From positions 558,001 through 622,000 of the forward strand of contig JANFAH010000001.1 of NCBI GenBank assembly GCA_024663395.1: a stretch of 64,000 nucleotides of DNA, in the 5' to 3' direction. The stretch's first letter is position 1, and each line of letters opens with the position of its first letter. The stretch comes from Pisolithus tinctorius. Lineage: Eukaryota; Basidiomycota; Agaricomycetes; Boletales; Pisolithaceae. The notes below the pieces were generated by a model. That model did no database searches. It had not been told where the DNA came from and saw only the letters and a program-made list of their open reading frames with translations. Shown in pieces: positions 11,142 through 64,000 of this stretch. The position numbers and the translations under genes are program-made.

Positions 11142-12869
11142 GATGACACTCCTCATGTTACTGCAGTAGTGACTGTTGAGGTGGACAAATCACTAATGGT
11201 AGAAATCTTGAAAGGATACATGGAGGATCCTTTCTGTAGGAAACTGTTCTCTCTCCTTGACTTGCTCCCTGGCCCCCAGGAACATCATGGTTTGTTGTAT
11301 CTTGTGGGCCATTTGGTGATCCCTCATGTACACTCACTTCACAAGCATTTCTTTCATCTCACTCATGATGCCTTGGGCAACTTCAGCACTGCCAAGACCT
11401 ATGCAGCACTGCACAATTCATTCTATTGGCCTAACATGTGTCATGATCTTGCAAGCACATACATTCCTGCCTGCACCCACTGCATGTGCAACAAGTCTCC
11501 TACCACAGCACTGGCTGGTCCTCTCCATCCCTTTCCTGTCCCTGACACTCATGCAGATTCAGTAGCCATTGACTTCATAGGCCCCTTGCCAGAAGATCAT
11601 GGGTTTAATATGATCATTATGATGATGGACCATCTTGGGGCTGACATGTGGCTGGTCCCTTGTCATAGTTCCATCTCAGCCTCTGAGTTTGCCACACTCT
11701 TCTTTGACCATTAGTATTGCAAGAATGGCCTTCCCTTGGAGGTTGTTTCAGATTGTGATAAGCTTTTTGTATCCTGCTTCTGGAGGTCCCTTCACAAACT
11801 GACAAGTATTAAACTGAAGATGTCATCATCATATCATCCACAGACAGACAGGGCCAGTGAATGCACCAACAAGACTGTTAATCAATGTGTTTGCTTCCGT
11901 GTTGAGCACAATCAGAAAGGCTGGGTCAAGGCCCTGCCCTGAGTGCATTTTCACATTATGAATACCATTAATAACAGTAGGGGCTTCTTGCCCTTCCAGC
12001 TTCATCTTGGTTGTCCCCCCAGCTGTTGCCCCCCATCTCCACCTTGGCCATGTTGGAACATAAAGTGCCACTGTTTGTTGGTACTTAGGTGCCATGCTAG
12101 TGTGCTTACATAAGCACAAAAAGCGCACATACTTGTAGTATTTTCTACTAGTATTCCCTCAGTAGTTTGTTCACTACTGAGGGTAAGTCTGTTCATATTA
12201 TGAGTAATCTACTATACTGACATCCTGTAGTAGCCTACAGGTACAGTAATACACTTAGTAGTTTGTTCACTACTGAGGTAGCCTTCAGATATTTCTACAG
12301 GGCAATGCTCTGATGGATCACTCTGATGCAAGTGCCTTTTTGGCCTGCCTAGAGATGGATGTCCTTGAAGCACATGACAATCTTCTTGCTGCTCAAGCTC
12401 ATGTGGCTAATCACCACTGCATCCCTGACCCAAGGTTCTTGGTTGGGGACAATGTTTGGTTATCTACTAAACATCATAGACACAAGTACATTACTAATGG
12501 TACCAATTGCATAGCAAAGTTTATGCCATGGTATGACAGCCTATATACTATCTTGTCAGCTTTGCCTGAGATGTCTTCATATGTCTTGGATGTGCCCCAT
12601 GCTAAAGCATGCACCACATTCCATGTCAGTCAGTTGCAAGCATTCATGCCCAATGACACTGTGCTCTTCCCCTCATGTGAACTGCTTTGCCTGGGCCCTG
12701 TGGTCATGGTGAATGGACAGTTGGAAAACTTGATTGAATATTGGATGAGAGGAGAGTGGGGAGGATGAAGAAGTACTTGGGGTGGTGGTTGGGGTATGGG
12801 CTGGAGGATGATGAGTGGTTGATGAAGAAGGATCTGGCAGACTGCAAAGCCTTGGATGTTTGGGAATGA
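11142..12869 (+). pseudogene. Decayed Ty3/gypsy (family E) integrase and chromodomain
   Basis: After the target duplication the frame reads an integrase zinc region (His pair near 11330-11370, CTHC near 11475), then a catalytic core with IDFIG (first Asp, about 11570), a decayed SDCDKLF segment (about 11750) and a YHPQTD..SE segment (about 11840-11860). A stop at 11712 and a further break near 11940 interrupt it. After an unrelated insert (about 12060-12290) the polyprotein tail resumes at 12313 and ends in a chromodomain readable in another frame, including KKYL, YGLEDDEWL and LDVW, with TGA at 12867-12869. This is a third gypsy lineage, distinct from A/C and B. It is CpG-depleted and not functional. 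Confidence 0.85.
12060..12290. repeat. Small insert with two copies of a hairpin motif
   Basis: This stretch breaks the family E reading frame and contains AGTAGTTTGTTCACTACTGAG at about 12160 and again at about 12260 (the arms CAGTAGT/ACTACTG form a hairpin). It resembles a MITE-like insertion. I could not define termini or a target duplication. Confidence 0.45.
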
Positions 12870-45279: not shown

Positions 45280-45710
45280 GATGACAAACTCTTATTGTCT
45301 TTTCATTGCTGACCCTGCCATCATTGGCACTGTTTACCATAAGGTCAATGAGGATTCCCCTCTTGATCTTGTTTATCATGCAACCATCCAAGCCCTTTGG
45401 CTTGAAGAACTCTCTCACTATGTGAACTGACAGAACCCTCTTCTATCCCCCACCAGAACCATCTTGAACAAGATTGCACATGAGCAGGTCCCCCTGCTTC
45501 TTAGACTTTTTGATATCCTTGGAGGTGTGGACCTCATTTACAATGTCTGTCAACACCCTACATTGATCACCCCCCTTCCTCCTGTGTCTAGAAGACCCTC
45601 GACTGCAACCTCTCCCCCAGTTTCCTCCATGTCATCCTCCCCGCTGGTGTCATCCCCATCATCCTCCTGCTCCTCTGGCTCTCTTTGAAGAGCAGACAGA
45701 CCTCAGACCC
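45280..45710 (+). pseudogene. Start of gypsy B2 ORF3, cut by KDZ
   Basis: Aligns with the N-terminal part of B1 ORF3: NSYCLFIADPAIIGTVYH, then VPLLLRLFDILGGVDLIYN and a Ser/Pro-rich stretch to 45688 (TGA). Similarity to B1 fades at about 45707, next to the KDZ terminus. The knuckle region is missing. Confidence 0.8.
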
Positions 45711-45720
45711 CATGTAGTCC

Positions 45721-47440
45721 ATTTAGTCACAACATATAGGTAGCCTGCATGCCAAAATGCCAACACTTATATAGACCCCGCGACAGGCCCATCTAAATAG
45801 ATTAGTCATGACACATGGACAGGCCTGAGGGCCTATAGTGAGAGCAACATATGTATGGGCCCGTAAGTGCAATTCCACAACATATGGGAGGGCCTGTGGA
45901 GGGTAAGGATGCTGCAACATATAGACAGGCCTGTGACCAAGTAAGTATGCTGAGCTACTGTAAGACATGGACGGGCTCGCCTATTGTATCATGAAGAAGG
46001 TTGCAACATATGGACGGGCCCACCTGTCATATGCTTTATAGGGTCACAACATAAAGAGGGGCCCCTCTATGATAGATTACAGAGTTGGCAGCATATGGAA
46101 GGGCCCGTCTTTGGGATAATATACCACTGTCACAACATATAGACGGGCCCGTCCATAGCAAGATGTACACCTGTCACAACATAAGGACAGGCCCGTCAGT
46201 AATATCATTGACAGCGTCACAGCACATAGATGGGCCTGTCTGGTAAGATGCATCGCTGCCGCAACATAAAGACGGGCCCATCAGTAATATCATTTATAGC
46301 GTCAAAACATATGGATGGGCCCTTCCATAATATCATTTATACCATCACAACACATGGGCAGGCCCATCCATAGTAAGATGTACCTGTCACAACATAAAGA
46401 CAGGCCCTTCAATATATATCATTTACAGGGTCACAACACATGGACGGGCACGTCTAGTAAGATGCACCTGTGTCACAACATAAAGACAGGCCTTTCAGCA
46501 AGGTCAATTACATGGTCACAGCACATGGATGGGCCCATCAATAGCAACATGTATGCCTGTCACAACATGAAGATGGGCCCATCAGTAATATCATTTACAG
46601 TGTCACAGCACATAGACAGGCCCGTCTAGTAAGATATGCCCCTGTCACAACATAAGGATGGGCCCGTCAGTAATATCAATTACACGGTCACAATACATGG
46701 ACGGGCCCGTCTAATAGCAACACGTATGCCTGTCGCAACATAAAGACAGGCCCATCAGTAATATCATTTACAATGTCACAACACATGGATGGGCCCATCA
46801 ATAGCAACACATATGCCTGTTGCAACATAAAGACGAGCCTGTCAGTAATATCATTTACAATATCACAACACATAGACGGGCCCATCTAGTAAGATGCACC
46901 CCTGTCGCAACATAAGGATGGGCCTGTCAGTAATATCATTTTCAATGTCACAACACATGGACAGGCCCATCAATAGCAACATGTATGCCTGTCGCAACAT
47001 AAAGATGGGCCCATCAGTGATATCATTTACAATGTCACAACACATGGACGGGCCCATCAATAGCAAGATGTACGCCTGTCACAACATAAGGACGGGCCTG
47101 TCAGTAATATCACTTACAGTGTCACAACACATAGACGGGCCCATCAGTAATATCAATTACACGGTCACAACACATGGATGGGCCCGTGTAGAAAGATACG
47201 CCCCTGTCGCAACATAAGGACGGGCCCATCAGTAATATCAATTACAAGGTCACAACACATGGACAACGGGCCCTTCAGCAGTATTATTTATATGGTCATA
47301 ACGTATGGACAGCCCTTCAGTAATATCTTTTATATCGCCATAAAACAAGGATGGGTCTGTCTAGTAAGATCCACCCCTGTCGCAACATAAGACGGGCCCA
47401 ACACCAATAGCACATATGGCATCACAACATATTGATTGGA
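45721..47440 (+). repeat. Left terminal inverted repeat array of KDZ
   Basis: Unique terminal 200 bp, then about 20 imperfect units of about 80 bp, each with two half-units of the form CACAACATATGGACGGGCCCGTC and spacer words TAGTAAGATG or CAGTAATATCATTTACA. The core GACGGGCCCGTC is a perfect 12-bp palindrome with two CpGs; exact copies occur at 46142 and 46700, and most others are TG/CA variants. Probably transposase-binding sites. Confidence 0.9.
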
Positions 47441-47542
47441 TCACAGTAAAATATTGAGGCAAGCATCCCAACATGCCGTAATTTTCCAACAAGCTGCAAG
47501 CGGCTCGCCCGCTATACAACTCCAACCTCATCCACCCCAAGC
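47441..47542. promoter_or_regulatory. Probable TET/JBP promoter region
   Basis: Short CpG-bearing interval between the terminal array and the TET/JBP start. No clear TATA box; TACAACTCCAACC lies just upstream of the ATG. Function inferred from position only. Confidence 0.35.
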
Positions 47543-48784
47543 ATGAATACTACGCAAGACATGTCTAAAATCCCCCATGGATGGCGAATGGAACTAACAG
47601 ACTGCATTGCGTCATACATGAAAGCAAGGTTTCAAGAGGAGGTATTCAGTGGACCTCGTGCCCTTCCAGATATATCAATTCCATTTCCGGTGTTATGTGA
47701 AGCGGATCGCATATCATCAGTAATCTCACAGGCCTATCGCTGCCCAAGTACGTCCATCATAATGGTGCGATGGAAGTTTTCATCTTTCCGCAGTCAACGT
47801 TGGGAAAAATCGGGGTGGAAAAACCTGCAATGCAGAAGCTGCTGAGAGATATGTGGAAGTGACTGAGCCATCCATTCTGGTGACCGACTCAAACACCATC
47901 CACGTATGGTATTTGCCGGATGCTCTCAGCCCAAAAAGAAGGGTAAGGAAATGCAGAATCTCACATTCTACTGACTGAATGGAATGGCAGGCCGACGTAT
48001 GGAACTGCCTTCATCTTCTGAGGGAACCACTGCGGGAGAGCATAAAGGCTTCCCCACAGGCATGGCAGATGGACAAGTCATATTTCCGTGATGATGCTGA
48101 GTTGAAAGGCGCCATCAACCTGTCACCCGCATGGTTTCAACAGGGTCGTGGGGTGGGTGATCATTGCTCACCTTGTAAATAAAGTGCTCATCTGTCTTGA
48201 AGCCCCAAAATGGCTTCCTGGAAGCCTCACAGCTGCTCAAATCCAGGACAGAAAACATTTCTACAAGGGAATGGGTCGACCAAATGTCCGACACCAATGC
48301 CCTGTTATCTGCGATCCTGCATGTCATCCACCTGCGAATGTATGCAGATGGCAGGGAAGCATTGATCTGCCTTGGCAAACAGGCAGAACAGTGGGCGGAT
48401 TCGGATATGAGCTCCATACTGCCGATATGGAGCTCCACGTATAGCAGCATGTCCGTGATGGTGAATCGGGCAACTTGTTACCACAGGGATATCAATGGAC
48501 GGGATCCATGGTATGACCTGCTGGTAACCGTGGGCGACTACCCACCTTTGGACTTTGTCATTCCAACACTGAATCTGCAGCTGCGCTACAACCCAGGGAC
48601 CATCATTTCATTTTCAGGTTCAGCATTGGAGCATGGGGTGGAAGCTGTAGACAGTGACAGAGCATGCCTGGCATACTACATGCATGCCAACATACATCAG
48701 TTGGTGCACATTCCCATGTGTCAATCACCGCAGATGGACAACCTACTACCTAGACCAGTTGCAACTGGAGAACTGTTGATTTGA
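47543..48784 (+). CDS. TET/JBP-family 2-oxoglutarate, Fe(II) dioxygenase
   Basis: Predicted to oxidise the methyl group of 5-methylcytosine in DNA. Exon 1 (from 47543, MNTTQDM) changes frame near 47810 before VTEPSILVTDSNTIHVWYLPDALSPKRR, followed by a GTAAGG...GGCAG intron (about 47943-47989). The next part (ADVWNCLHLLREPLR..LSPAWFQQ) leads through a second intron to the open frame ending at 48784. That frame holds the catalytic core: His and Asp of HRD (48482-48490), YNPGTII, His of LEHGV (48632-48634) and Arg of DSDRACLAYYM (48659-48661), the expected iron and 2-oxoglutarate ligands. It is the first gene inside the left terminus. The core looks intact; exon 1 may hold a one-base break. Family assignment is by motif order, without a search. 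Confidence 0.82.
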
Positions 48785-49082
48785 AGCTGCAAAATTTAAT
48801 GTAAGATTTAGTAGGTGATGCAGATCTCGTATTTTAGTAGGATATGCTGGCTCTCAAACTTTGGATGGGCAGTGTTGCCAAGATTTTGCAAATGGCTGGG
48901 TGCTTATACATCATAGATTGGGCGGGTACTCAGAGCTAAAGGGTTTGCATCAAAAACTGCAACAAAAGTAAAACTACTCAGGCCATCATGCAGATGGGTG
49001 GATTGTGAGACATCGTGTGGATGGGTGGGGGTTCAGACATCATGCGAATGGGCAGCATCTCATAAATGATCAACATTTACAG
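48785..49082. other. Spacer with short degenerate repeats
   Basis: Contains three imperfect copies of a unit of about 34 bp with GATGGGTGG..AGACATC near 48985-49060. No gene. Confidence 0.5.
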
Positions 49083-51230
49083 AAATGTCTATACAACCAA
49101 CTCCACAGTCAAAAACACATAAACTATTGAAGCGGCATGCCCAACAACCCACACAATGCCCACCACCTAGCATAGAAATGGTCGATTTGTCGACCCCAAC
49201 TGTGGACAACATCGGCATATTTCCGAATATTTTCGATGCAGTAGTTTACCTGCTCCTCGATATGGCCATCAAGACGGTCTGTGATTGGCGCCTCAGGCAA
49301 TGGCCATAAGCCCTGGGCCATCATCAACGATTTGCAGCAATGAGAATAAGCAGCATACCTTAAAAAAAACCCAAGCTGTGGAAAACAATCCTTTGCCTTG
49401 CAATCTTTGGGAATCCACTGCGTATTCCTCGGAACGATATAGCCACCAAGGGAATGCAAAGCCAGAATTGGGATCAGCTGTGTGCGGGGTCCAATGCGGG
49501 ACAATGGTGCTGATATTGTCGATTATGCAAAATGCGCTAAGGGGAATTAGCTGCATTTGCTCGTGGAAGCTAACCTCATCATCTTGGTGTCTGAGGTACG
49601 CATGGTAGCATGCTGGGAGGGGAGGGGTATAGCTGGCACGTGACACTGTCACCAGAATCAAGCTATTAAGCTGATTCTGAGGGAATTATGTATCAGTCCC
49701 ACATTGTGAGAAATTGATGTAAAACCTACCAAGTCCATCGCTAGGTTTGCAAACCAATGCACGGGCCATCCCGTGATATCGGCAGTCTGCTTCAGATGTA
49801 CAGAGGCCACCTCAATCTGGCACGCCAAGTAGATGATACCCATCTCTACCACAGACTGGCGAGATGGGTGTGATTGGCTGGCGATGAATGGCTCTGGACA
49901 ATTTTCAAAGGCGGAATGCGGATAACGAATGACTTCCATCAAATCGAGCATATTGATGAGTCGAAGGCCCTGAGATGCTGCACCATACTGGTCCCTTGCA
50001 GCTGTGCCCAATTCTCTCACAATGGCATTCACAGCACGCACAAGGTGCCTATCAAGGGTGGGATCGAATGGCGTGTCGCTGGGAGTGGTGTTTCCGTGGT
50101 AGCGAGATACCATGGCATGTAAGGCGTGCAGGACTACAATTATCAACGTCAATGGCGTATCAGATTAAGTGCATGCCCATACCCTGATCGCAACGTGGAA
50201 CAGGTGCCAATCCCCATTTTTCCATTTGAAGAGATTGCTGTTTGGATGGAAGTTCACCTACATAATTGATGGATATCACTGATCACACGAATGGAACCAA
50301 ATAAATGCTCACCATTGCATATTTCTTCGAAAAGATCCCTCATCTCTGATCGTTCAGGCATGCCAAAAGTCAAATGGTTTCCGCCATTGTCCTCATCTGC
50401 TGTCAAGTCAAAAGATTCGACAGGTACATTTGAATCAAGTGGGGGAGGTGTTGGTTCCCTCATATCCTGCAATTGAGCAAGCAGGTTAGTCGGAGAATTG
50501 GGTCGAGGAGATGGGTCCCTCAGATTTGATGATTCACAGGTGATGGGCAGAGGAGACAGTTCCCACACATTCTGCAAGTCTGCCAGAAAATTGACCTGCA
50601 TAGTCATGTCTTGTGCAGGTGTTGAAGACCCATCCATCCTGTTCAATTTCTCGTCTGTGACTGGCGGTGCCGATGGTTCCCGCACATTCAGCAATTGCTC
50701 GAGTAGATCCACATTCATACCATCTGCTGGGGGAGCAGTGGTTCCCATTCATTCAGGAACCGATTCATTAAGTTTTTGTGTGGATCCATTACTAGAAAAT
50801 TAGTTTGTTCATTAGCTTGAAGGGCAATCATGCCAACTCACCGGCCATGATTCTGCCCTCTGCCAGAGCAGTTGGCTCCCTTTCCTGCAGGAACTGAGCC
50901 AGCAAACTTTCAGATGAATCTATAGCGAAAGAACTTTGTTGTTGAGCTTGGAGAGAAATCATGTTCACTCACTGGCTGCGATATCGATGTTCGACCCCGC
51001 CATATCCACCCTTCCACTTGAGACAATTGGTGGCAGGGTTGGCTCTCGCAGCTCATGCAGTTGTACTAGCCTCTCCTCCAGATTTTTGGACTGCTTCACG
51101 CAGGAGCTAGATTGCCTTGGCTCGATTGGTCTTACATTAGCTGTGGATGGCTTAGGTCACTGGATCCAACAATGAAGACAACCTCACCTTGACGATGGAA
51201 ACGAACTTGGCGGGACTGTTTGGTGGACAT
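49083..51230 (-). CDS. KDZ cargo gene 2, unknown multi-exon protein with repeated REP motif
   Basis: The likely start is ATG at 51230-51228 (MSTKQSRQVRFHRQ) before a GTGAGG donor. The N-terminal half has repeated segments LL.QL..REP(S/T).PP (about 51080-51030, 50905-50870, 50715-50660, 50590-50540, 50490-50450), separated by intron-like gaps. An acidic stretch (SFDLTADEDNGGN) follows near 50410. The C-terminal part, in frames 50152-49658, 49661-49293 and 49504-49124, is helical without a recognised motif and ends GLLGMPLQ. I do not recognise the family. It is transcribed toward TET/JBP (convergent). Exon borders are approximate. Confidence 0.55.
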
Positions 51231-51653
51231 ATTCGACGACGATGGGTTCACTGATAGCTCGATGATCAATAAAGATTTAAACTTGTAGGAACAATGGCGA
51301 GAATATCATTCACACTGTGGGAAGCAAGGTTGGACAATGGCGGATGGAGCCAAATTTTGGGTAACAGCAATACATGGGAGATGAGCAGCAATATCTCCCT
51401 ACATAGATAGCTACCAGTCGCTTCCACATGGCCAATACGTAGACCTGTCCCGCTCAGCTCTCCGCTCAATTGTCCCACTTAACTATCCCTCTCTCCGATA
51501 TCAAAGACGCCTCTCACAACCACCATGGTGTCATGAGCTACCATACATTCCATACAATTGTATTCTAATGTGTAAAACTAGGCTAAGCCCTCTATAGACC
51601 GTACACGAGTTCCAAAAAAGGTTTCCGCTCTGAATGTTTGAGGGATTCGACAA

Positions 51654-54194
51654 CTACTTCTGCTTCTGATTGCTGCCTGTTTGCTTGCGTGATCTCTTTG
51701 CATCAGGAGATGGAACATCTGCATCTGGCCTTGCAGGGGCCTTTCTGACACGAGGTGACTTCCAGGTGCTCCCAGGGACGCCCTGTTTCACATTCGTGGA
51801 TGCTGCATTGGAGGTCACAGATCCATTATTGTTGGACTTGGACAAGTATTTGGCCCCAGGTCGACGTCAATTCATGTCTGGCTCACTCGATTCTGACAGA
51901 GCTGACTTAACACACAATGCAAACTTGTTAGCCATGACAACTGATTCAACATGACCGAACTTGCCTTGTGCGTGCGCTTCAGGGTGGATTTCAGCTTTCC
52001 GCCTTTGTTTCTGCTCGTTGACCCCTCCTCAGTTGGGAGGTCAGTGAAAGGAATGCTCTCTAATCCATCTGCATCTGCATATTCTGAGTGGTCCTGTAGT
52101 TCAGTTGTGTACTCACTCCCTGAGTGCAGATCAGAGTTTGCTGCGAATACAAGTTGCAGCGGGAAGCTCACTATTCAGGGATGTTGCCAATTTCTTTGAA
52201 TTGGATAGGGTGGGCAAATAAGTGTCTTCATCAGCTTCATCATCGGAATCATGGCAGTTGCTTTCCCTCCCATTATCGTCAGTTAGTGCTTTATTTTGTG
52301 GATGATGCACCGGGGTGTTTGCATGGGCTGGAGGTGCAGAGAGCTGCTCACTATGGGAACCATCAGCTGGTGGGGGATTTGAGTGGGAACGAGAAGGGAA
52401 TGGTGTCTTGGCATGGTTTTGCCTCCCGCCAGATACCTGAAGACCGGAATCGCATTAGTGCTGATCTGTCATGCATGAAAATCACACATGGCGCACCTTT
52501 TTAGTGGAGGGATCATCTGTTGCAACATCGCTCCCCTCAGCCTCGCCGTGATCATCCAAACTGTCATCCACGCTATCATCTGCACTATCATCTGCACTAT
52601 CATCCGCCAGTCCCTCTTCCTGTGCTTTACCCTTGCCCTTGACATTTTTCCTTCCAGGATTCTTTTTGTATTTGGGGGCAGGTGTCTTTTGGTATTTCCA
52701 CTGCCTCACAACCTGGAGGGGTACCAAAGTTCTATCCACTGGTGGCTGCAGCTCACCAGATCGATCGATCCATTTCTGAAATCCAAACACATCATTTGGA
52801 TGGGTTTCCTGTCGCTTGCGCCAAAAGGACAGCAGCTGGGTAGCTGTTGTCGTCCATATGTGACTTGGGTCACGGTCGAAGGTAAATCCTTCAGGATGAT
52901 GGCGGGCTGCTATCATTTCTGCTTGATGATGACCAAAGTTCTTGAATGGCACTGCTGACGAGGGATTTCCGCATGCTAATCCTGATAGCACTCGTCAGAG
53001 ATTGAGGAGACTAAATACTCTGGCCACTCATGGTAGTGAGCAGTCATAAATCCGCAAACCGTTTTTTGTAGTTGGTCCCAGCTAAGGCCCACGATTTCTC
53101 CAATCCAAATCTCTCCATTGGCATTTTTCACCAATTGCATGGAGTCAACCTTGCCTGTCCTCATTGCTTTGGCTGCTGTCTTTTTCCAAGCACATTCGGG
53201 ACTTGACTCGCCATCATGCTTGGGTGGTGTTCCTGGTTCCTCAAATGTTTCCCCAAGGTACTCTCTCCAGCTTCCTTCCAGTGTGCGGACATCATTGAAG
53301 GGGATCCCATCCGTGATTTCGTTATTGAAGTCCATACTGTCATTGCATGAGTCTTACTTAGGCCTAGAGGAGAATATGGTGGACTCATGTGCATGCCTGT
53401 ATAGTTCCCTCCTCATTTTTCCACCCAGCCATACACACTATGCGAATTCCACAATATCTCCACATCTCCATCGCAAAGTTTCAGACATACTTGTACCCAT
53501 ACTTGGCTGCATTCCTGGGAACCAGGATAAATTGAAGACTGGGAAGTTGACCTCATAAAATCGCACCTTGCTTTTGTCTCTGGCACAGGGCCTTCCCACC
53601 CATTCCACCTTTCCACTATATCTTCAGCTGCAGCCAATTGTTCCTCCGTCAGGTCGTCCTGAATAAAAGCTGTCAATGCATTCTGATACTGTTGGATCTG
53701 CTTGCTTCCATGGGTATCGCCTTCTTCTACTTTCATTTTTGCAAGCCTCTCCTGTATTTGCTCTTGGTACAATTTGCGGACCACTGCCCGCACAGAGTAT
53801 TTGTAACTGGATCTAAGGGTAATGTGGGGCTTCTTTGAATGGAGGGGCTTTTTCAACCAATCTTGTATTAGCTACAAGGGTGCTTTGAATTGTGAGCATC
53901 CAAATCAGAACTTTTAGAGCATACCTTGCACTTGGTCTGGACTTTGCTCCCTCTCAATTCTTTGTTCCTGTCCAATCCCTGCATCTCCTCCCATATGGAT
54001 AGCAGAACTGCAGGCTTCTTCTTCTTCCCTGCTTGCCTCCATTCCTGGCATCGGCGCCCAAGGATCTCCAACTCTTCCACTTCAAATGTTTCTTCCTCCC
54101 TTTCCCCCACATCTGATGGTTCTATATCTCACTCACCATCAGCATCATCTCTTTCCATCTGATCCCAGGTGTCTGATTCGTACTGGGACTCCAT
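51654..54194 (-). CDS. KDZ cargo gene 3, unknown mushroom-type protein
   Basis: The start is probably at 54194 (MESQYESDTWDQMERDD), with a TGA after GE where Arg would fit. Exons include an acidic, Cys-containing part (54110-53868), a basic helical part (SYKYSVRAVVRKLYQ..LTEEQLAAAEDIVERWNG, 53856-53570), ERFA-like and GEIWIGEIVGLSW segments (53335-52976), FTFDRDPSHIWTTTATQLLSFWRKRQETHP (about 52880-52800), acidic DDSADDS repeats (about 52610-52540), and a Lys/Arg-rich end PRVRKAPARP (about 51760) to 51654. It resembles a large family of uncharacterised Agaricomycete proteins by memory only. Whether that family is always KDZ-linked I cannot say. Function unknown. Confidence 0.55.
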
Positions 54195-54309
54195 GGAGTA
54201 TGAGGTGGTATGATGTATAATGGTGTATAATAGATGGTTGGCTGCTAAGTTTTTTCATGCCCTTGTTTGGTCTCAATGCATTTCAGTACTAGTACGGTCA
54301 TGCCAAGGA

Positions 54310-54425
54310 ATTCATTTGGACCTCCATGAAGCAACCAAAATATCCAATCAGGCTGATATCTTTGACGGGAGCTCCGTGAAGCAACCAAAATATCCAATCG
54401 GGCTGATCTCTTTGACAGGATCCCA
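54310..54425 (+). repeat. Direct repeat of about 60 bp
   Basis: GAAGCAACCAAAATATCCAA occurs at about 54328 and 54388, followed by TCGGGCTGAT or TCAGGCTGAT and TCTTTGAC. It lies in the intergenic stretch between cargo gene 3 and the KDZ transposase. Confidence 0.7.
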
Positions 54426-54794
54426 CCCAAAGGCGGATTAGCTCCCGGTTTGCATCCGGGCTGTCAGTTGGCTGGCCCAATCATATCCATACTTATATTG
54501 ATACTGAACATCTCGTTTCACCTACATCAGCTAATATAGCATCCAAATTCACCATCATAATCCAGGCAAAGCACCCAGGTAATGTTGCAGCAGGAAGGGA
54601 ATGTGCAGGCAGGGATTGAGCAGTAATAAGAAGGCAGCGCCATGCATTGCACAAGGCCAGTGTAGTTGCATTTGTATTTATGCCCTGACATGTGTTAAGG
54701 TACTGACATCAATAGAGCTAAATGATAAAGCGACTTGCACTAGCAGTAGTGTTTCTAACAACTGACCTCATACTGTCAAATCAGCAACCTCCAG
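54426..54794. other. Upstream region of the KDZ transposase
   Basis: AT-rich, no gene seen. It presumably contains divergent control sequences for the transposase (plus) and cargo gene 3 (minus). No specific promoter motif was identified. Confidence 0.35.
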
Positions 54795-57700
54795 ATGGCC
54801 AAGGGAAGTACTCAAAAGGGCATGAGAATGATTGGTCCTACCCCGGGCCATCGGGTGAAGCAGCTGGAAGTCAAGACTCGGAGAACTGGAGGTAGATATA
54901 GATCGCAATTGGTGGAAGTCGCGATCAAACAGCCAGATCCAGCAACCCCTGTCCATTCTCCCCGATCCTCGCCATCCAAGCATTCAAGGTCTCGCTCCCA
55001 CAAGTACTTTGATGCATGGGCGGATTCAGCCTTCAACGGACATGAAAGCATGAGCCCACCGGTCCAGCAGCTGATGTTACCACGGAAAAAGGTATGCAGC
55101 AGTTCGCCAACCCAAAAGCGGACTTCACATGGTGTGTCAGACACAGAACGATTATATCCGTGAATGGGTTCCATGGAAGGGGGAGTTCTTGAAGATACTC
55201 CTGGAGCTGGAAGCATCCCCAGAGCCAAGGAACTGCACCTGGTGTGGCAACGACGGGGTGTACAGATGTCCGGATTGCTTGCATCAGCCCCTATTCTGCA
55301 CAGAATGTTGCCAGAAGAGTCATGAGAGTCTGCCTTTCCACAGGATCCAACAGTGGACAGGGGACTGCTACAAGGAATCTGCCCTCCATATGGTGAGAGA
55401 TCAGCTGGTTTCCCAGAATTACATTCACATCAAGACCCACAGACTGGCATTTGGTTGCACCTGGGACATGGTGGAGCACCCTGTCCCCATGCGATCGCAC
55501 AAGCCCAGCAAGCAGCAGGCGAACCTCTGCCCATGGATGATCAAGAGTGGGAAGATGTGGAAGATATTGAAGAAAACCCAAAGCACCTCTGTCCTCCAGC
55601 GGGGTCAAGATATCTCACCATCGTGGATGTCACAGGTGTTCATTTCATTGTAGTGAATTGGTGTGAATGCGAGACTGCAGAAGCCCGATACATACAGTTA
55701 CTCAGAGCCAAACTATTTCCCTCAATGTTTGAGAAGCCAAGCACCACATTCACATTCGCAGTTCTGGATGACTTCCTGAGGGACAACCTGGAATGTGGAA
55801 CGTCCAGTATGAACTATTACAGCAAGTTGCATCGGATCACATCCAGTGTGTTTCCACACCTAGTTCCAGTAAGATTTGGTATTTTGGTTCCAAGTGTTGG
55901 AATATCTGAAGGGTCAATCAGGATAGATACCATGAGCTTCTATGGGTTGCGCAGAAATGGTGATACCTCAAGCTACTTAAATGGAATGGATTCTGCGGCA
56001 CAACCAGGTCAGCAGAGAAAGGCGGACTGGCATTATTTTGCGCAGCATGCCCCCAGCCTGGAATAAATGTTGATACCAATGAGGATTTGGACCAGTAAGC
56101 TGCTCCAATACTGCAATCCTCATATGCTAACCTTCTCCAGCTGGCGGTTCACCCGCACAGTAGTAATGGACGGAAACTTTAAAGCAGAACACATGCATGA
56201 GTGGAAATCCGAAGATCATGTGTTGTTGATGGACAGACTAGGTTATATGGTGACCAATCCAAACTACACGGACTATTTGAAGGCCACTCCACATATTGCG
56301 GAGGTATGAATTCATTCAACCCGTGCAAAACATGATCTGAGCTCAGGCACAGAAATCTACCTGCAACAACCACAGAGCTATCAGTCAGGCAAACGCAGCC
56401 CAGGGAAAGCTTCATGCGACCGGAATTGGGGCGACTGCATGTGCACAGCACGGATGCTTTTATCCGCATTGTGTTGTTGACTTCCAAAAAGGAGAAAGGT
56501 ATGAGGTTGAATCGTCGATTTTGACACCCGCTGATGGCACTGCAGACAGTTGAACATGGACTACTGTTTGGCAAATGCGTTGGGATACAATATGGAAGGG
56601 ATCAAACAAGTGGTTTGCTTCTACAACATTAACTGCTCCTACATGACAAATCTGCGGAAGCATGTGGGTTGAAGTGAGTTGATTGATATCCCATCGTCAC
56701 TTCGGATTATCCCTGGAATCGGCATATGGCATGTGCATGGGCACAAGAAGGAATGTTATGCACGGTATGCCCCGCTGTTCATCAAGGGGGCTGGATGGGT
56801 AGACGGAGAAATCATTGAAACGTTGTGGTCCGTCCTTAACGTGGCATCCACATCTGCATGCGGGATGACCTCACCACATTGCCAAGAACTGCTGGATTTC
56901 CAGATGAATGATTCCAACTTCATGAAGATGATTCAGATTGGTTAGTCTGAGCATCCACTTGCAGCGCACTCTCTGACATCCAAGATTAAGCAGATAGCCT
57001 ATCATGGAAGCTCAAAGCGGCTCGAGCAGCAGCACCATTGGCGAGGCAGGCATATATAAAGCTAGATGAAGCCTTGACTGCAGAGCAGCGAGACAGCTGG
57101 TGAACACAAGAGATTTGTGCACTGCAAGATCGTGTCACCGACCCATCTGCCATGGACATCTTCGAAGTTCAATTAAGGGTGGGTATGGCGTTCGCCTTTT
57201 TGGATAAATGCAAAATACTTACATATCACGAGAAGCACCAACAGTGCGTGCCATCGAACTAACGTTATTGGAGGAACCAAGACCCAGCGGAAGCCTACAT
57301 GGAGTGGCTAGTTGGCTAGCATGTGGTTTATGCTTAGAAGAGGCCATAACCTCACTTCACATGGACAGAAAGGACATCGGGGAACAGGCATCGGAATTGA
57401 AAAAATTGGCTATGGCACACCATGCTGATCGCATTTCATCTGAACAATCGGGTTTTATCACAGATGCCGTGATTTACTTGAAGCTGCACCTTGAAGCGGG
57501 CTCCAACACTTCTGCCAGCGAATCTGTACAGCCGACTGCGTTTCTTGACGCAAATTCCGAGCAGGATTATGCTTCGGATGATGGTTGGCTGGACAATGTG
57601 GGGGATGAGTTGCCCGCCTCAGATGGAACCCTGGCAGGACCGCAGGACAAATTGCCACTTCCATCTGCTCTTGGCATTGACGCATGTCGAGCTTGAGGGC

Positions 57701-58446
57701 TTCAAAATCTTGCAGAAATGGAGCTGAAGCTTCGCACAGGTCAAGCTAATGATGCGCTACATGGCCTCCATCTTATGTTGGCAGACAAGGCAGCTGTCTT
57801 TCGGGGGGTGGTGCACACAGCTAAGAGCTATTCTACGAAAACTCGGGCCTGGGATATGATCTGCGCTATCAATGTCTCAGTAAAAAAACAGGCCACAATT
57901 TATAATCGATGCAGAGATGCCATGGTTGCACTTGGCACAGGTGCAGATATCTCAGGACATTATCAAGAGCTTCATAAAGAAGACCTGGCTGTGCAGACAG
58001 CAGCCTTCTCCCAAAATGCACAGGAGCACCACGGAACCCATCTTCCATGGTTTTGGTCAATTGACGTCCCACAGGACACAGAATCAAAGAGTTGGATGTC
58101 TGAATGTATGTTGACCTTACTGTTCAACAGTGCTTTGAGGTTGATGAATTTGCTTCAATTAGTTTATCGCATTCATTGGCTGCGAGCAAAATCCGTCAAA
58201 GATTGTTGGGAAGAAGAGGAAGAGCTCGTAATATCAGAATTTCAATGGGCTATAAGTTTCTTCAGATTTCGAGCAAAAGAATGGCATAAGATACAGATGA
58301 GAAACAGCGCTATTGGAGCTCCTGGGGTGTGGTGTTATGCAGCGAGGCAGAGGATGATGTATTCGAGGTTGGCCGAGCATGCTGAACGCAAATGGCAGGC
58401 CATGAATGCGACTGATATTCAGTTTGTCCTGGAGAAAGATTTGTAG
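54795..58446 (+). pseudogene. KDZ transposase with CxC2-type cysteine cluster
   Basis: About 1000 residues over at least seven exons. Exon 1 (54795-55092) is basic and Ser/Pro-rich. After a GTATGC...ACACAG intron comes the cysteine cluster CTWCGNDGVYRCPDC..CTECC..H..LPFHRIQQW (about 55237-55355). Then GIWLHLGHGGAPCPH (about 55445), LLRAKLFP..FTFAVLDDF..SMNYYSKLHRITSSVFPHLVP (55700-55868) and, after another intron, DRYHELLWVAQKW. The RNase H-like core follows: MDGNFKAEH (Asp 56169-56171), YNINCSY (56622-56642) and VDGEIIETLW (Glu 56808-56810). The helical C-terminus has RAKSVKD near 58180 and ends at 58446. In-frame TGA codons at 55961-55963 and 56670-56672, and Asn where Asp is expected in the second motif, indicate inactivity. 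It would normally excise and insert the element. Confidence 0.88.
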
Positions 58447-59758
58447 TTAAATGTTAGCTCAATGTGAACCTGCAGTTTCCGTCCCCCACCCTTGCATTCC
58501 GCCCTGTAGCTGATGGGCGGGTCAGCGGGTACTTCACAGGAGACGCCCAGTGGCAAGCTAGCCCATTCATTTACCTTTCGCATGTTTTATTTCCATTGTG
58601 GATATGTCTGGTATGACATGCATATGTATATCGTCTGTCTTGAAAGGCTCATGCATCTGCGGGCTGAGATGAATGGCAACAAACCATTGTTGGGAAACAG
58701 AATATTTATTGCTCAATGCAGAGGGTGAATTGGGCACTAGTTACTGGCTGAATGCCCTTGGTGGTATTTCTGTCTGCTGAGAAATATTTATCCGCTCATT
58801 TGCCAAGCTTCTGCCTATCAAAATACATTGGCTCCTACAATAGCAGAATGCAACTTTCTCCCTGAATTGAACCTTGCGAATCTCATACTCTGCTCATTTG
58901 CACATGTCCAACCTGTGGGCATACCTTGGATCCTACGTTAGTGCAATGAGAATATTGCTTTGCATTTGCATCCGATGACCAATTGCTCTCAGCCTTGCAT
59001 CTCACGCAGTCCGCTCACTTTGAAGGGTTCCGTCTATCAGGATCCATCAAATTCCATGTTAGCAGGTTGAGACAGTCCATATCAACCTTGCATATTGCAC
59101 AGGCCACTCATTTGGAAGGGTTCCATCTATCAGGATCCGTGGAATGCTGTTTTTGCAGGCTGACATCTTCCTTTGCATTGTTATCCTATTATTAGCCATT
59201 ATCTTGTTTTGTAACTCCCAAGTGAACGCTGTAAATAGCATAGCTGCTCGTTCGCCAGGTGTCTGTCTATTGGGATTCATCAGCGGCCATATTAGCAGAC
59301 TCAGATGTGTCTATCAGGATCCATGGAATGCTGTTTGCGCAGGCTGACATTTTTGTTTGCATTGTTATCCTATTATTAGTCATTATCGTGTTTTGTAAAT
59401 CCCAAGTGAACGCTGTAAATAGCATAGCCTGCGCATTTGGGTTCCGTCTATCAGGCTCCATCAGCTCCGGTTTTAGCAGAATGAGACCATCCCGCTATCT
59501 CATTTTTTAAGCTTCATGTTAACTATGCTATATCGCAAAGCCATGCATTCACTAAGCTTCTGCCTATCGGGATACATCAGCAGTTGTTTTAGTAGAATGA
59601 GATTATCCTTTGCAATTCTGTTGGCTGTCTAGCCATTGTCTTTTTCTCACTCTAAGTAAATGTTGAGTATATGATGCGGCTGCAGTGGTCAATTAAAATG
59701 CGAAATGTAAAAAAACATTGTATATACCACGGAGGAGTAAAATTATAGACAGCCTCAT
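58447..59758 (+). repeat. Non-coding stretch with degenerate tandem repeats
   Basis: From about 58780 to 59640, units near 90-195 bp recur around the words TCTATCAGGATCCATCA, TTAGCAGAATGAGAC and TTGCATTGTTATCC. The best pair is 59135-59240 and 59320-59430, which share ATTGTTATCCTATTATTAG and CCCAAGTGAACGCTGTAAAT. Short frames here are repeat artefacts. No gene. Confidence 0.7.
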
Positions 59759-61010
59759 TCACCCTGCTGTCCTATCTGCCCTTGTCTCATCTGCCAGAGG
59801 CCCAAAGAGATCGATGAGGTCGTCACCCAATGGTCGTCCATACACCCGAATATGCAGAGCCTCCAGCTCATGCGCCATCCTGTCCAGTGTCTGCGTGGTC
59901 TCATCCTGTTGTATTTGGAAATCGTACATTCGATCCTCGTAGTATTGGCGGTGGGCCTCAGCATCGTGGAGTCGATGTTCCAAATCTTCGATTCGCTGTT
60001 CGATTGTGTTGGATGTTTGCGAAACATCGGCAATTGGGGCACAGACAGGTGACAGTGCGCTGGGAGTTGCAGTGGTTGTGGGTTGGACGGGTGCCGCCGT
60101 TGTTGATGGGTGGGTTTCTGCTTTGAATACAAGGGTTAATGACGATACTTAGTGTAGATGTGGAGTGGTTAAACATACCTGCTACCGTAGATTCCTGTAC
60201 CTCCTGTGCAACGGATGGGCCAACCTCAACGATCGAATCTGCTCGTACAGTGGCTGGGATTGGGCGGGAATCCCTGCGTTTGAATGCAGGAATACGAATC
60301 TCTGAATAAAATTTGAGTCAGCGGTAAATACATGAAATTGGAAACATACTGAGTGAAGATCCCTCAGGGATCGTCTTTCCCTGGTTGGAGGGCCCAACCC
60401 CAGTATTGATGGCTTTGGAAGCCATCAAAACGTGTCACTTTTGGGGACGTTCCACTGGGCTTTGGGGTTCTTGGGCCTCCATTGTTGGGGACAGACTTCG
60501 AGCTCGCTTTTTCCCCCTGGCTCGCCATGGATTCTGTCGAGTTGGAGCGGTAGTGCTGCCTTTGGCATGGTTGCATCGAATCTTGCGACCATCGCACAGG
60601 AAGCAGGACTTCCCAGGGTTCCTGTAGCATCGGACCTTGTGTCTGCAGCACGACTCGCAGGATTTGGGGTCAGGGGAAGGCATCCTTCTGAAAGCTAAGG
60701 CAGCACGACCGTATAGTCCGTCCGACGGTGGACAAGGCTTGTGTTTCGATTGGCCTTGAGCAGAAACATCATCTTCATCATTGGTTTCCGCTGTTGCCTT
60801 CGTAGTGCGGGATCAACATCTGGATTGACGGGTCATCATTTTCATGGCAGCTTAGCGCTTCTGCCTGCCTCGTACTGGTTCTTCCTCCTTGTCCTCCTTC
60901 TCTGGCACCTCCTCTTCACCCTCATTGTCCACCTCCATCCTGTGTGAGCCCTCCGCTATCATTTGCTCCACCTCCACCTTGGTCACTTTCCATTTTCCTT
61001 TATTGCTCAT
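59759..61010 (-). CDS. KDZ cargo gene 4: Cys-cluster and coiled-coil protein
   Basis: The start may be at 61010 (MSNKGKWKVTKVEVEQ, acidic EEEVPEKEDKEEE follows) or, if that exon is separate, at 60683 (MPSPDPKSC). The exon 60683-60360 carries CESCCRHKVRCYRNPGKSC then CDGRKIRC, a six-cysteine cluster (C-x2-C-x6-C-x7-C-x2-C-x6-C) resembling fungal Zn2Cys6 modules, followed by a basic segment (ARGKKRARSLSP). Later exons (about 60300-60182 and 60123-59759) encode a Thr/Pro linker and a coiled coil (IEQRIEDLEHRLHDAE..HELEALHIRVYG). Likely a nuclear DNA-binding factor, possibly controlling the element. It parallels the antisense gene of gypsy A in having an acidic part, Cys cluster and helical tail. 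Exon joins are uncertain. Confidence 0.6.
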
Positions 61011-61339
61011 AGGCATTTCGGTCTCTTGAGCCGAGGTCTTCATGCCACTTCAAGAACATGTCGACGCCAATGAGGGTCATCAGAATCTCATCCATCCTAG
61101 CGATGAGGTCGCGTACAGAGTCCTGAATACATCAGTTAGTGAAAAAGTGTGATGAGGCTATGACACACTAGTTCATTGTTTATCGCCTTGATGGCACCTC
61201 TCCACTTCGCAATCTTGTCTGCCTTTCCCAGCTTGCTGCTTTCCACGATATCCTTGAAATAAATTTGAAGAATGAGGTTGGCTGCAGCATCGAGCTCAGG
61301 CGATTTCTTGAAGAGCTTGTGAGACAATGACAATGGCAT
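61000..61339 (-). CDS. KDZ cargo gene 5, small helical protein
   Basis: Exon 1 begins at 61339 (MPLSLSHKLFKKSPELDAA) and runs to about 61165 (AIKAINNEL). A short intron precedes DSVRDLIARMDEILMTLIGV..MFLKWHEDL, ending NAYEQ with TAA at 61002-61000. About 95 residues, mostly helical, no known motif. Its stop region overlaps the first ATG of the downstream frame by 11 bases, so the two could instead belong to one spliced gene. Function unknown. Confidence 0.45.
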
Positions 61340-61759
61340 GTTTCTGATGATGAGACGATGAGGTAATTTGACAGTGAGAGTGGTGATGGTGATTGGAGAG
61401 AGGAAGAGTCAGAAGTGAAAGACGGACAATGAGATATGCGGATGTTGCACTTTTTATCCCGCCTATGAATGATTCCCACAGCATGATGGCAATACTGGTA
61501 CAAGTCCATAATCCTGGATGCATATATGAAGCAGAGACTCGGATAAAAATATTATGCGTTGTTCTGAATAGCATTGCCATTTGTTTTGTGTGTTTCCTGT
61601 CTGCTCCAATGGTGGAGTCCTGGCTCGTGGCTACATAGACCAGCGCCTGAGATTCCAACTGAATAGACAAATCATCCAACATGAAACACAATTTATAGTG
61701 GGAAATTCAGATACTTCATAGTGCGAGAGGTTCCCCTTTCTTCATTTCTTGTCTTCCTG
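61340..61759. other. Spacer before the right terminal array
   Basis: No gene with support; a 131-codon minus frame here has no motif and runs into cargo gene 5 out of frame. Probably the promoter side of the minus-strand cargo genes. Confidence 0.4.
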
Positions 61760-64000
61760 GGCCCATCTTATATTGTGACAGGGGGATAACCCAATATGGA
61801 TAGGCCTGTCCATTTGCAGTGAGCTATCTATGATATGACGGATTTGCCCGCCTTATGCGGTGCCAAGGGTTTGTAATCCTGCGATGGACAGATTGGCCCG
61901 TCTTATGTTGTAACACTGGTTTTTGTTTTCCCTTATCTGCTGCCTGAGAATACCATGGATGAGCCTGTCCTTATGTAGATCCCTTTGATCTCCCTTTCTG
62001 CTGCCTGAGAATGCCTTACACGGGCCGTCCTTATGTAGATAGCTTGGATCTCCCTTTCTGCTGCCTAAGAATACCATACATGGACCCGTCCTTATGTTTT
62101 GACAGGGGTGCATCTGGCTAGATGGGCCCGTCCATTTGTTGTGACGATATACATGATACTACTGAAGGCCCGTCTTTATGTTTCGTCAGAGGTACATCTT
62201 ACTGTGGATGGGCCCGTCCATATGCTGTGACAATGTAAATAATACAACTGAAGGGCCCGTCTTTATGTTTCGACAGGGTACATCTTACTGGGGCCAGGCC
62301 TGCCCATATGTTGTGATGATATAAATAATACTACTGAAGGGCCCGTCCATATGTTGAGATGCTATACATGAGATTACTGATGGGCCCATCTTTATGTTTC
62401 ATCTGAAGTACATCTTACTATGGATGGGCCTGTCCTATGCTGTGACAATATAAATAATACTACTGAAGGGCCCATCCACATGTTGTGATGATATAAATAA
62501 TACTATTGAAGGGCCCGTCCATATGTTGTGACTCTATTAAATGATATTAGTGACAGGCCCGCCTTTATGTTTCGACAGGGTACATCTTACTGGGGCTGGG
62601 CCCGCCCATATGTTGTGACGATATAAATAATACTACTGAAGGGCTCGTCCATATGCTGTGACTCTATTAAATGATATTAGTGATGGGCCCGCCGTTATGT
62701 TTCGACAGGGTACATCTTACTGGGGCTGGGCCCGCCTATAGTTGTGACGATATAAATAATACTTGTCATAGTCATGCCTCGACCCCGGCTGGACTCGGCC
62801 TTGCCTGTCCCGTATCTCCAGTTGGTCTAGCGTGGTAGACACTGCTTTGCAGTGTCTGTCACTTCGGTTAAGCTCTGCCCAGTCATGTCCCCAGTCCACT
62901 CTGTCCTGGTCTCCATCGTCTTAGTCATATCTTACTAATACCTGTCTTACCAATCACCTTAGCAATCCTTGTGAGACTGGCATTACCAGTCTCTGTACTA
63001 TAGTTACTTCTAGTATATAAGCTTGTAGATACTTGGCCTGTAGACCTCAGTCTGAAATCAACTAAGTTAACCCAATAACCCTGCTTCGGCCTTGGACTCG
63101 GACTGAGACCCACGCAAGGGAATAGCGCTGTACTCCCAGTTGCTAAGTCCAATCAGTCCAATCCTCTGTATCTTCGACTCCCCTTCTGAATCCGACCCCT
63201 CGGCCTCGTGCCTCCCTTGGTCTCCGGTCTGGCCTCAACCTGGACAATCCTCGTACTTGACAATACTACTGATGGGCCCGTCCATATGTTGTGATGCTAT
63301 ACATGAGATTACTGATGGGGCCGTCTTTATGTTTCATCAGAGGTACACCTTACTGTGGATGGGCCTGTCCATATGTTGCATAATACTACTGACAGGCCTG
63401 ACCTTACATTGTGACTCTATTAAAAGATACTTGTGACAGGCCTGTCTTTATGTTTCAACAGCAGTACATCTTACTGTCGACAGGCCTGTCCATATGTTGT
63501 GACATTATGAAACGACATTACTGACAGGCCCGTCTTTATGTTGCGACAGAGGTATGGCTTATTATGAACAGGCCTGTCTAGATGTTGTGACACCATAAAT
63601 GATATTACTCCTGGGCCTGTCCATATGTTGCCAACTTTGTATTCTAATCATAGACGGGCCCGTCCTTATGCTGTGACCCTCTCCATGTTATGATAGGCAG
63701 GCCTGCCTTAATGTTGAGACAGGGGTGTAACCTACCAGGACGGGCCCGTCCATGTCTTACAGCAGCTCAGTATACTTAATTGGTCATGGGCCCGTCTAAA
63801 TGTTTCAGCATCCTTACCCACCATGGGCCCTCCCATATGTTGTGGTAATGCACTTACGGGCCCGTACATATGTTGCTCTCACTTTAGTCCCTCGGGCCTG
63901 TCCATGTGTAGTGGCTAATCTATTATAGGCAGGCCCATCTCGGGGTCTATATAAGTGTTGGTGTTTTGGCACACAGGCTGCCCATGTGTTGTGACTAAGT
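61760..64000 (-). repeat. Right terminal inverted repeat array of KDZ
   Basis: Inverted counterpart of 45721-47440, with the same half-units (GGGCCCGTCCATATGTTGTGAC, shortened here) and the same terminal unique 200 bp. Exact GACGGGCCCGTC palindromes lie at 63653 and 63739. After removing the solo LTR (62764-63262) and one duplication copy it is about 1.74 kb, matching the left array. Confidence 0.9.
62764..63262 (+). repeat. Solo LTR, family F, in the KDZ right terminus
   Basis: 499 bp, TGTCATAGTCATGCC to GTACTTGACA, with target duplication ATACT at 62759-62763 and 63263-63267. A TATATAAG box lies near 63013. Opposite orientation to the copies at 26596 and 38538. It inserted after the KDZ element arrived. 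Confidence 0.95.

Follow-up and report, generated by a model that had tools for sequence, protein, structure and literature searches.

A Kyakuja-like KDZ transposon of Pisolithus tinctorius with a TET gene, a zinc-cluster gene and terminal CpG-palindrome arrays

Delimited KDZ elements that bear TET genes and are flanked by 7-bp duplications have already been published as the Kyakuja transposons of Agaricomycetes, Boletales included (Kojima 2025, PMC12730594). Two Laccaria families, Kyakuja-1_LB and Kyakuja-2_LB, are described there with 5′-CA..TG-3′ termini and no TIRs, and the function of fungal transposon TET genes is stated not to have been experimentally validated; the same source names plant VANDAL elements with sequence-specific anti-silencing proteins (PMC12730594). 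A further point of comparison is soybean TgmR, of CACTA/Spm type, in which short repeated sites lie at both ends, a protein is thought to bind them, and activity is tied to methylation of these terminal sites (PMC4219821).

Here we analyze an element of Pisolithus tinctorius located in a 64,000-nucleotide stretch of DNA (the window), which an earlier note, made from the sequence alone, had read as a near-complete KDZ transposon carrying a TET/JBP enzyme. VANDAL elements are MuDR-type elements, of which the Pisolithus element is not a member, and we know of no VANDAL element with a TET enzyme. Like TgmR it has short repeated sites at both ends, whereas TgmR has another transposase and 3-bp duplications (PMC4219821); the Pisolithus element adds an enzyme of a 5mC-oxidizing family, and methylation of its sites is presumptive. 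With Kyakuja it shares a KDZ transposase, an AG-type TET resembling CcTET, target duplications of 7 bp and a right end in TG, but its left end is GA and it has a ~380-bp inverted repeat with arrays, where the Laccaria families are described with CA..TG and no TIRs (PMC12730594). Given its GA..TG termini and inverted repeat, we therefore file it as KDZ and Kyakuja-like, not as Kyakuja.

Boundaries and insertion site

The element is 18,311 bp long, extending from window position 45706 to window-equivalent 64016, and is colinear with two other full copies (c2 and c3); 45706..64000 lies within the window, which ends 16 bp short of the right end as seen from right-flank sequence (features other than genes are given without strand). 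Both limits are fixed by conserved termini. The sequence GACCCCATGTAGTCC starts all 30 of 30 left-end loci (26 distinct flanks), placing the true left end at 45706, and GTGACTACACTATGTG closes 12 of 12 right-end loci, placing the right end at window-equivalent 64016. The genome search for further copies that the earlier note had called for thus recovered the same termini repeatedly, and its delimited 18-kb unit holds, as does its 17/20 terminal match, which is part of the longer alignment between the two ends; its boundaries of 45721 and 64000, however, must give way to 45706 and 64016.

The element is flanked by the target-site duplication GACCTCA, with the left copy at 45699..45705 and the right copy at window-equivalent 64017-64023. 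Among the matches listed, from which the positions of right-end and duplication loci were copied by hand out of search tables, the 7-bp duplication is exact in nine of the ten elements tested and matches at 6/7 positions in the remaining one. An 8-bp duplication, as had been anticipated, was rejected, as comparison of the right-end loci gives 7 bp. The element sits inside a gypsy-like retroelement, and on the right flank, where the earlier note had located a possible failure of its reading, gypsy-like sequence picks up again; moreover, 8 of 19 gypsy relatives align across the insertion point without the element (7 of these 8 displayed). As a delimited element with target-site duplications and a KDZ domain of 86.8 bits (Pfam cut-off 26.6), this is confirmed as a KDZ transposon, Kyakuja-like, structurally complete yet decaying. 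The description "near-complete" therefore applies to its structure and not to its genes, since the transposase, gene 3 and the zinc-cluster gene are broken.

Genes of the window copy and of its relatives

The window copy carries five genes, in the order TET (+), gene 2 (−), gene 3 (−), KDZ transposase (+) and zinc-cluster protein (−); three genes thus accompany the TET and transposase genes, not the four previously reported. Gene models were derived from annotated relatives with tblastn, and a home-made gene finder recovered only part of the genes. The TET/JBP dioxygenase gene (47543..48784, +; exons 47543-47747, 47794-47942, 47991-48152 and 48203-48784) has an open spliced frame of 365 codons, and the 365-aa protein matches Pfam Tet_JBP at 51.7 bits (cut-off 34.9) and the solved CcTet at 82 bits, which bears out the homology that the earlier note had named as its test. 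The dioxygenase core proposed there is likewise present: HRD, the distal His and the Arg align to CcTet, giving a CcTET-like active site. CcTET of Coprinopsis cinerea (7vpn, 7w5p, 8jkk) is the best solved relative, and the activity of the Pisolithus protein is a prediction from this likeness; the Gly and Asp that are tied to CcTET's use of 6mA and 5mC (PMC12730594) are also aligned in it.

The CxC2-KDZ transposase occupies 54759..58446 (+), given as a whole span with uncertain exon borders, as the annotated relatives used covered the other genes. Its CxC2 (55590-55844; 77.5 bits) and its KDZ domain (56151-56918) both exceed their Pfam cut-offs, in agreement with the CxC2-type KDZ transposase first reported. 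A stop at 57694-57696 is absent in c2 and c3. Gene 2 (49127..51230, −) was placed by tblastn of annotated relatives, with exact exon borders uncertain; its homologues were found only in Pisolithus (51 of 51 matches), and its predicted structure has a mean pLDDT of 41. Gene 3 (51935..54194, −) has two in-frame stops within aligned exons and, again, homologues found only in Pisolithus (53 of 53 matches); its predicted structure (pLDDT 49.9) gave no match in the PDB at E ≤ 0.001. The Zn(2)-C6-like protein gene (59837..61339, −; cysteine cluster 60573-60659) has lost ~150 bp and acquired several stops, and six cysteines are retained. A 499-bp solo-LTR-like sequence (TGTCA..TGACA, with ATACT on each side) at 62764..63262 is a later insertion in the right array, missing from c2 and c3. 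We rejected the possibility that the window copy is active, given the premature stops in the transposase, gene 3 and the zinc-cluster gene.

Relatives of the transposase fall into a main family of 51 loci (at least 67% identity; hand-picked among the matches listed, second fragments of a locus excluded) and a subfamily B of 30 loci (46-55% identity, hand-cut among the matches listed); a third group, at 39-44% identity, was excluded from both counts, and the weak tail was left out of the TET table. At 40 of the 51 listed family loci the zinc gene lies downstream in opposite orientation, TET lies upstream at 31, and 24 loci combine the two; among the 30 listed subfamily B loci the corresponding numbers are 28, 20 and 19. 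The fixed gene set suggested earlier is therefore recognizable in both groups, although among these hand-cut matches TET is not listed near 20 of the 51 family loci and 10 of the 30 subfamily B loci. Identity of subfamily B to the main family is 54% in the transposase C-terminus, 51% over 170 residues of TET and 33% in the zinc protein, and subfamily B keeps the termini, the 7-bp duplication, the palindrome and a 42-44-bp spacing.

Terminal arrays and the zinc-cluster protein

The left terminus and subterminal array (45706..47440) consist of a ~43-bp unit with the CpG palindrome GACGGGCCCGTC, mostly decayed in the window copy, and the right subterminal array (62122..64000) is inverted relative to it. 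Palindrome-like sites number 23 on the left and 15 on the right, against a block-shuffle mean of ~0.04, and are mirror-arranged, consistent with the matching terminal arrays noted previously. Genome-wide, the palindrome occurs at 403 sites versus 3 for the reversed pattern, and a longer unit at 84 sites versus 0; 78 of these 84 lie within 2.6 kb inside an end, among the ends listed. Palindromes are spaced ~43 bp apart at both ends and have the core CGG-GC-CCG. To our knowledge, a 2-bp gap between inverted CGG triplets is not among the spacings known for the Zn(2)-C6 class. These palindromes and the zinc-cluster gene, which the earlier note did not name, are less ordinary features than the TET cargo. 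CpG-palindrome arrays were not found in the main text of Kojima 2025 or in literature searches, though its supplements or Iyer 2014 (PNAS) may mention such features; a word search of that main text gave zero occurrences of zinc, Zn2, subterminal and Pisolithus (PMC12730594).

One may postulate that the arrays are passive tandem repeats, homogenized by unequal exchange and without any role. Unit number does vary among copies, and array pieces align between the two subfamilies at 76-88% over 41-88 bp, so that common descent accounts for part of their likeness. In CAACA-anchored units, however, the palindrome varies less than the spacer does (mean majority-base share 0.82 and 0.83 vs 0.56 and 0.64), ACGGGCCCGT is the sole palindromic 10-mer that recurs within every one of the four arrays compared, and the two ends mirror each other; we therefore judge passive repeats improbable.

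A candidate reader of the arrays is the zinc-cluster protein. Zn(2)-C6 fungal transcription factors have the pattern C-x2-C-x6-C-x5-12-C-x2-C-x6-8-C, and the spacing here, C-x2-C-x6-C-x7-C-x2-C-x6-C, fits it in the window copy, c2 and c3; the strict pattern has three matches in 359,419 bases searched, all of them this gene in those three copies. Subfamily B keeps the spacing, and there the pattern holds in spacing only, as one of the residue classes that the strict pattern requires is absent. Pfam Zn_clus (PF00172) matches weakly, in 2 of 14 relatives (best E 0.0022), with no match for the c2 protein at E ≤ 5 and 11.2 bits for subfamily B (cut-off 21); 5 of 17 UniRef matches are named Zn(2)-C6 fungal-type. 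Matches to Sugarporin_N, MscS_porin and similar Pfam families were rejected as probable coiled-coil artifacts.

The weakness of the Zn_clus match leaves room for another arrangement, in which the transposase itself, for instance through its CxC2 cysteine cluster, binds the arrays and the zinc-cluster protein acts as a conventional activator of genes of the element or of the host. The CxC2 match above its cut-off favors this, and multiple subterminal sites for transposon proteins are known from soybean TgmR (PMC4219821). Against it, the zinc gene accompanies the transposase at the listed loci of both groups as regularly as TET does, and inverted CGG triplets, a motif of the zinc-cluster class, as for AmyR (PMC5468973), are contained in the palindrome. 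We would give this arrangement somewhat less than an even chance.

CpG decay and a possible role of the arrays

Among 519 CpGs common to c2 and c3, 262 have become CA or TG in the window copy, versus 156 changes at 12,813 non-CpG sites; as a control, 808 of 910 GpCs are kept, a count that includes GpC overlapping CpG. This decay is a strong mutational mark of CpG methylation, which we infer from it. The idea that array CpGs are spared was rejected, since palindromes keep 21 of 62 CpGs versus 254 of 519 elsewhere in the window copy. Across left ends holding at least two sites, intact palindrome CpGs range from 38/42 to 0/10 in one genome. Codon-position counts between copies are mixed and, being confounded by CpG decay, are not taken here as a sign of selection.

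An open TET frame did not keep the window copy from decaying, nor were the palindrome CpGs of this copy protected, which is in keeping with a TET that lacks targeting: it may oxidize 5mC genome-wide in trans, or produce a lasting modified base, with the arrays irrelevant to it. Oxidized cytosine is found on retrotransposons as well in Coprinopsis and Laccaria (PMC12730594). The regular spacing of CpG palindromes in two diverged TET-bearing subfamilies is nonetheless a circumstantial reason to consider a site-related role, and we regard untargeted action as quite possible, if a little short of probable.

The anatomy of the element, comprising termini, duplications, gene order and arrays, is directly observed; binding, methylation and demethylation at the arrays we infer. 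We propose that the transposase would insert the element, producing the 7-bp duplication, and that the arrays would be the assembly place for an element protein, the likeliest being a dimer of the zinc-cluster protein, alone or together with the transposase, on palindromes roughly four helical turns apart. As each palindrome holds two CpGs, host methylation could switch the ends off by blocking this binding, and the on-board TET, in cis or in trans, would oxidize 5mC, returning ends and promoters to a readable state. The window copy would show the fate of a copy left silenced, in which CpG transitions erode the arrays and put stops in genes. With this mechanism included, we consider it reasonably probable that the window copy is an old, partly inactivated member of a large cut-and-paste KDZ family of Pisolithus tinctorius. 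The narrower proposal, an anti-silencing kit in which a zinc-cluster reader brings TET to the element's CpG-palindrome ends, and hence sequence-targeted demethylation encoded by a eukaryotic mobile element, is tentative and on balance unlikely. What the family offers is a candidate TET target written in DNA, a countable CpG-palindrome array at each end with a candidate reader gene alongside; together with copies that span nearly intact to fully eroded palindromes, this makes the action of a TET on its own ends testable.

Boundaries and genes of the transposon

We searched 92.5 Mb in 221 contigs of Pisolithus tinctorius, a member of the Boletales (PMC10066745), in which the window occupies C1:558001-622000. 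All 30 left-end loci, representing 26 distinct flanks, start with GACCCCATGTAGTCC, which sets the left end of the window copy at 45706, 15 bp further left than the 45721 given in the earlier note, and all 12 right-end loci finish with GTGACTACACTATGTG. Given these conserved termini, the element extends from window 45706 to window-equivalent 64016 (the same numbering continued past the end), a length of 18,311 bp. The 17/20 terminal match reported previously is real, and the two ends can be aligned over ~380 bp. When the right flank was checked, the gypsy-like sequence was found to pick up again past the window end (locus L009), and 8 of 19 fetched gypsy relatives align across the site with no insert (7 of the 8 are shown in the flank alignment). 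The target duplication of the window copy is GACCTCA, 7 bp rather than the 8 bp that had been claimed; in eight paired ends, 7-bp duplications are exact in 7 and match at 6/7 positions in 1, while 8-mers match at no more than 3/8 positions. Exact 7-bp duplications also flank a ninth pair of ends (ATCCAGA) and a tenth, from the diverged subfamily B (AAACAAG). Taken alone, the identity of the element as a KDZ transposon with a TET gene appears nearly certain.

The TET gene comprises 365 codons in four exons with GT..AG introns; the window copy and the full copy c3 have an open frame, and the full copy c2 has one stop. Its proposed TET/JBP homology was confirmed by matches to Tet_JBP (51.7 bits) and CcTet (82 bits), and the alignment to CcTet contains the HRD, distal His, and Arg expected from the earlier note, together with the Gly and Asp tied to the 6mA and 5mC activity of CcTET (PMC12730594). 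The transposase is of the CxC2 type as suggested, with CxC2 and KDZ domains both exceeding the cut-off. Four further genes had been claimed, but only three were found in the element: gene 2, gene 3, and a right-hand zinc gene. Database matches were from Pisolithus species in 51/51 cases for gene 2 and from Pisolithus in 53/53 for gene 3; those of the zinc gene were all from P. tinctorius (17/17), with 5 bearing the UniRef name Zn(2)-C6 fungal-type. These searches scored the best 7,993 (zinc gene) and 7,996 (gene 3) candidates ranked by shared words, and as short words in common are needed, remoter relatives of both may escape. In both P. tinctorius and P. orientalis, the locus tags of genes 2 and 3 are consecutive (database proteins P0018/P0070, P0031/P0076, and P0041/P0098); the pair is therefore common to both species, and the whole element probably is as well.

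Copies, subfamilies, and the CpG palindrome

Searches of the genome returned at least 40 left-end matches (the best 40 of 253 candidates) and at least 40 right-end matches. A listed right end lies within 60 kb of 20 of the 40 listed left ends, with a span of 17.9-18.9 kb in 8 of those 20; the longer spans were probably enlarged by nested insertions. Profile matches number at least 150 for Tet_JBP and 160 for KDZ. Only array length and indels break the colinearity of the window copy with the full copies c2 (C1:2049350-2067651) and c3 (C2:1403791-1421883). Two groups of left ends (L031, L032, L034, and L036; L011 and L012) have identical flanks on different contigs, reflecting either segmental duplication or uncollapsed haplotypes of the assembly.

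Subfamily B is represented by an 18,975-bp element (C18:753563-772537) with the terminal sequence of the window copy and a 7-bp duplication. Its CpG observed/expected ratio is ~0.9-1.2, and it is therefore a young copy. Identity to the window family is 54% in the transposase C-terminus, 51% across 170 residues of the catalytic part of TET, and 33% in the zinc protein, which keeps the cysteine spacing but departs from the strict cluster pattern at one residue class. Gene order is constant across both subfamilies: the 51 transposase loci of the window family include at least 40 followed downstream by an oppositely oriented zinc gene, at least 31 with TET upstream, and at least 24 with both, and among 30 loci of subfamily B the corresponding values are at least 28, 20, and 19 (counts from hand-copied listed matches, such that misses include matches outside the lists). 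A third TET+ KDZ group, known by coordinates only (C27:178717/181923, C16, C50, C66, C3, and C96), has a transposase ~40-44% identical and, in a layout that differs from that of the window copy, TET ~3 kb away from the matched transposase segment; weak zinc-protein matches (E ~1e-4) lie close to some members (e.g., C66:231511).

Both ends carry mirror-arranged arrays of a ~43-bp unit, the best-conserved part of which is TGTCACAACATNNNGACGGGCCCGTC. By a strict 12-bp pattern, full palindromes occupy 17/21 left and 9/15 right sites in c2, 2/10 and 7/17 in c3, and 2/20 and 2/11 in the window copy. Over 30 left ends 403/926 palindrome CpGs are intact, ranging from 38/42 down to 0/10 at ends that have two or more sites. 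Genome-wide, GACGGGCCCGTC occurs at 403 places versus 3 for the reversed pattern, and the longer unit at 84 versus 0, with 78 of the 84 no more than 2.6 kb inside a listed element end. The subfamily B arrays are diverged (best matches to window-copy arrays 76-88% over 41-88 bp), yet here too ACGGGCCCGT is the sole palindromic 10-mer present more than once (9 left, 20 right), at sites mostly 42-44 bp apart or near multiples.

Decay of the window copy

The window copy has a stop in the transposase (57694-57696) that c2 and c3 lack, two in-frame stops within the aligned exons of gene 3, and, in the zinc gene, a ~150 bp deletion and several stops, with all six cysteines retained. No lesion was established in gene 2, for which the exon model is uncertain. 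At 473 sites c2 and c3 agree and the window copy differs; CpG transitions number 314 on the window side and 14 in reverse. Of the 519 CpGs common to c2 and c3, 254 are kept and 262 are now CA or TG, while non-CpG changes affect 156 of 12,813 sites. Core CpG observed/expected is 0.52 in the window copy, 0.85 in c2, and 0.67 in c3, and the ratio averages 0.32 in the 45.7 kb to the left of the window copy. This pattern suggests decay of methylated cytosines, of which CpG loss is the usual mark. The palindrome CpGs are not spared: 21/62 are kept versus 254/519 in the core (Fisher p 0.03, assuming that all sites were initially full palindromes).

Across nine 5-kb pieces of window 1-45700 the ratio varies from 0.05 to 0.96 and exceeds 0.6 in two. 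The pieces that start at 15 and 20 kb stand out as CpG-rich islands amid strong depletion. The right array holds a 499-bp TGTCA..TGACA sequence flanked on each side by ATACT (62764-63262) that neither c2 nor c3 has and that resembles an inserted solo LTR. A further ~124 bp (59237-59361) missing from c2 and c3 adjoins a tandem 93-bp repeat (58989-59163).

Relation to known elements and a proposed mechanism

Complete TET+ transposons have already been described in fungi, and escape from methylation-based silencing has been proposed for them (PMC12730594). Among these, TET+ Kyakuja, also present in Boletales, resembles the window element in having a TET gene and 7-bp duplications (PMC12730594). 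TET gene numbers and oxidised cytosines have been given for Laccaria and Coprinopsis (PMC8889193), and "KDZ" is absent from the main text of the Pisolithus genome paper (PMC10066745). In the main texts searched, we found no TET+ KDZ element reported to carry a zinc-cluster gene or arrays of CpG palindromes; both features thus appear to be new for these elements, which are otherwise of a known kind.

Our proposal starts from the observed anatomy, the conserved palindrome and zinc gene, and the CpG decay. Two observations speak against a protective role of TET in cis: the window copy has decayed with TET still in an open frame, and its palindrome CpGs were not spared. From what is known of these families, the element would move by cut-and-paste transposition, its TET would oxidise 5mC, and CGG triplets would be recognised by a dimer of the zinc-cluster protein, AmyR being an example of such recognition (PMC5468973). 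For soybean TgmR, methylated subterminal repeats have been proposed to prevent binding of the element protein (PMC4219821), and by analogy methylation of the arrays would block binding here. At the core of the proposal, the zinc protein is the putative binder of the palindromes and TET their putative clearer.
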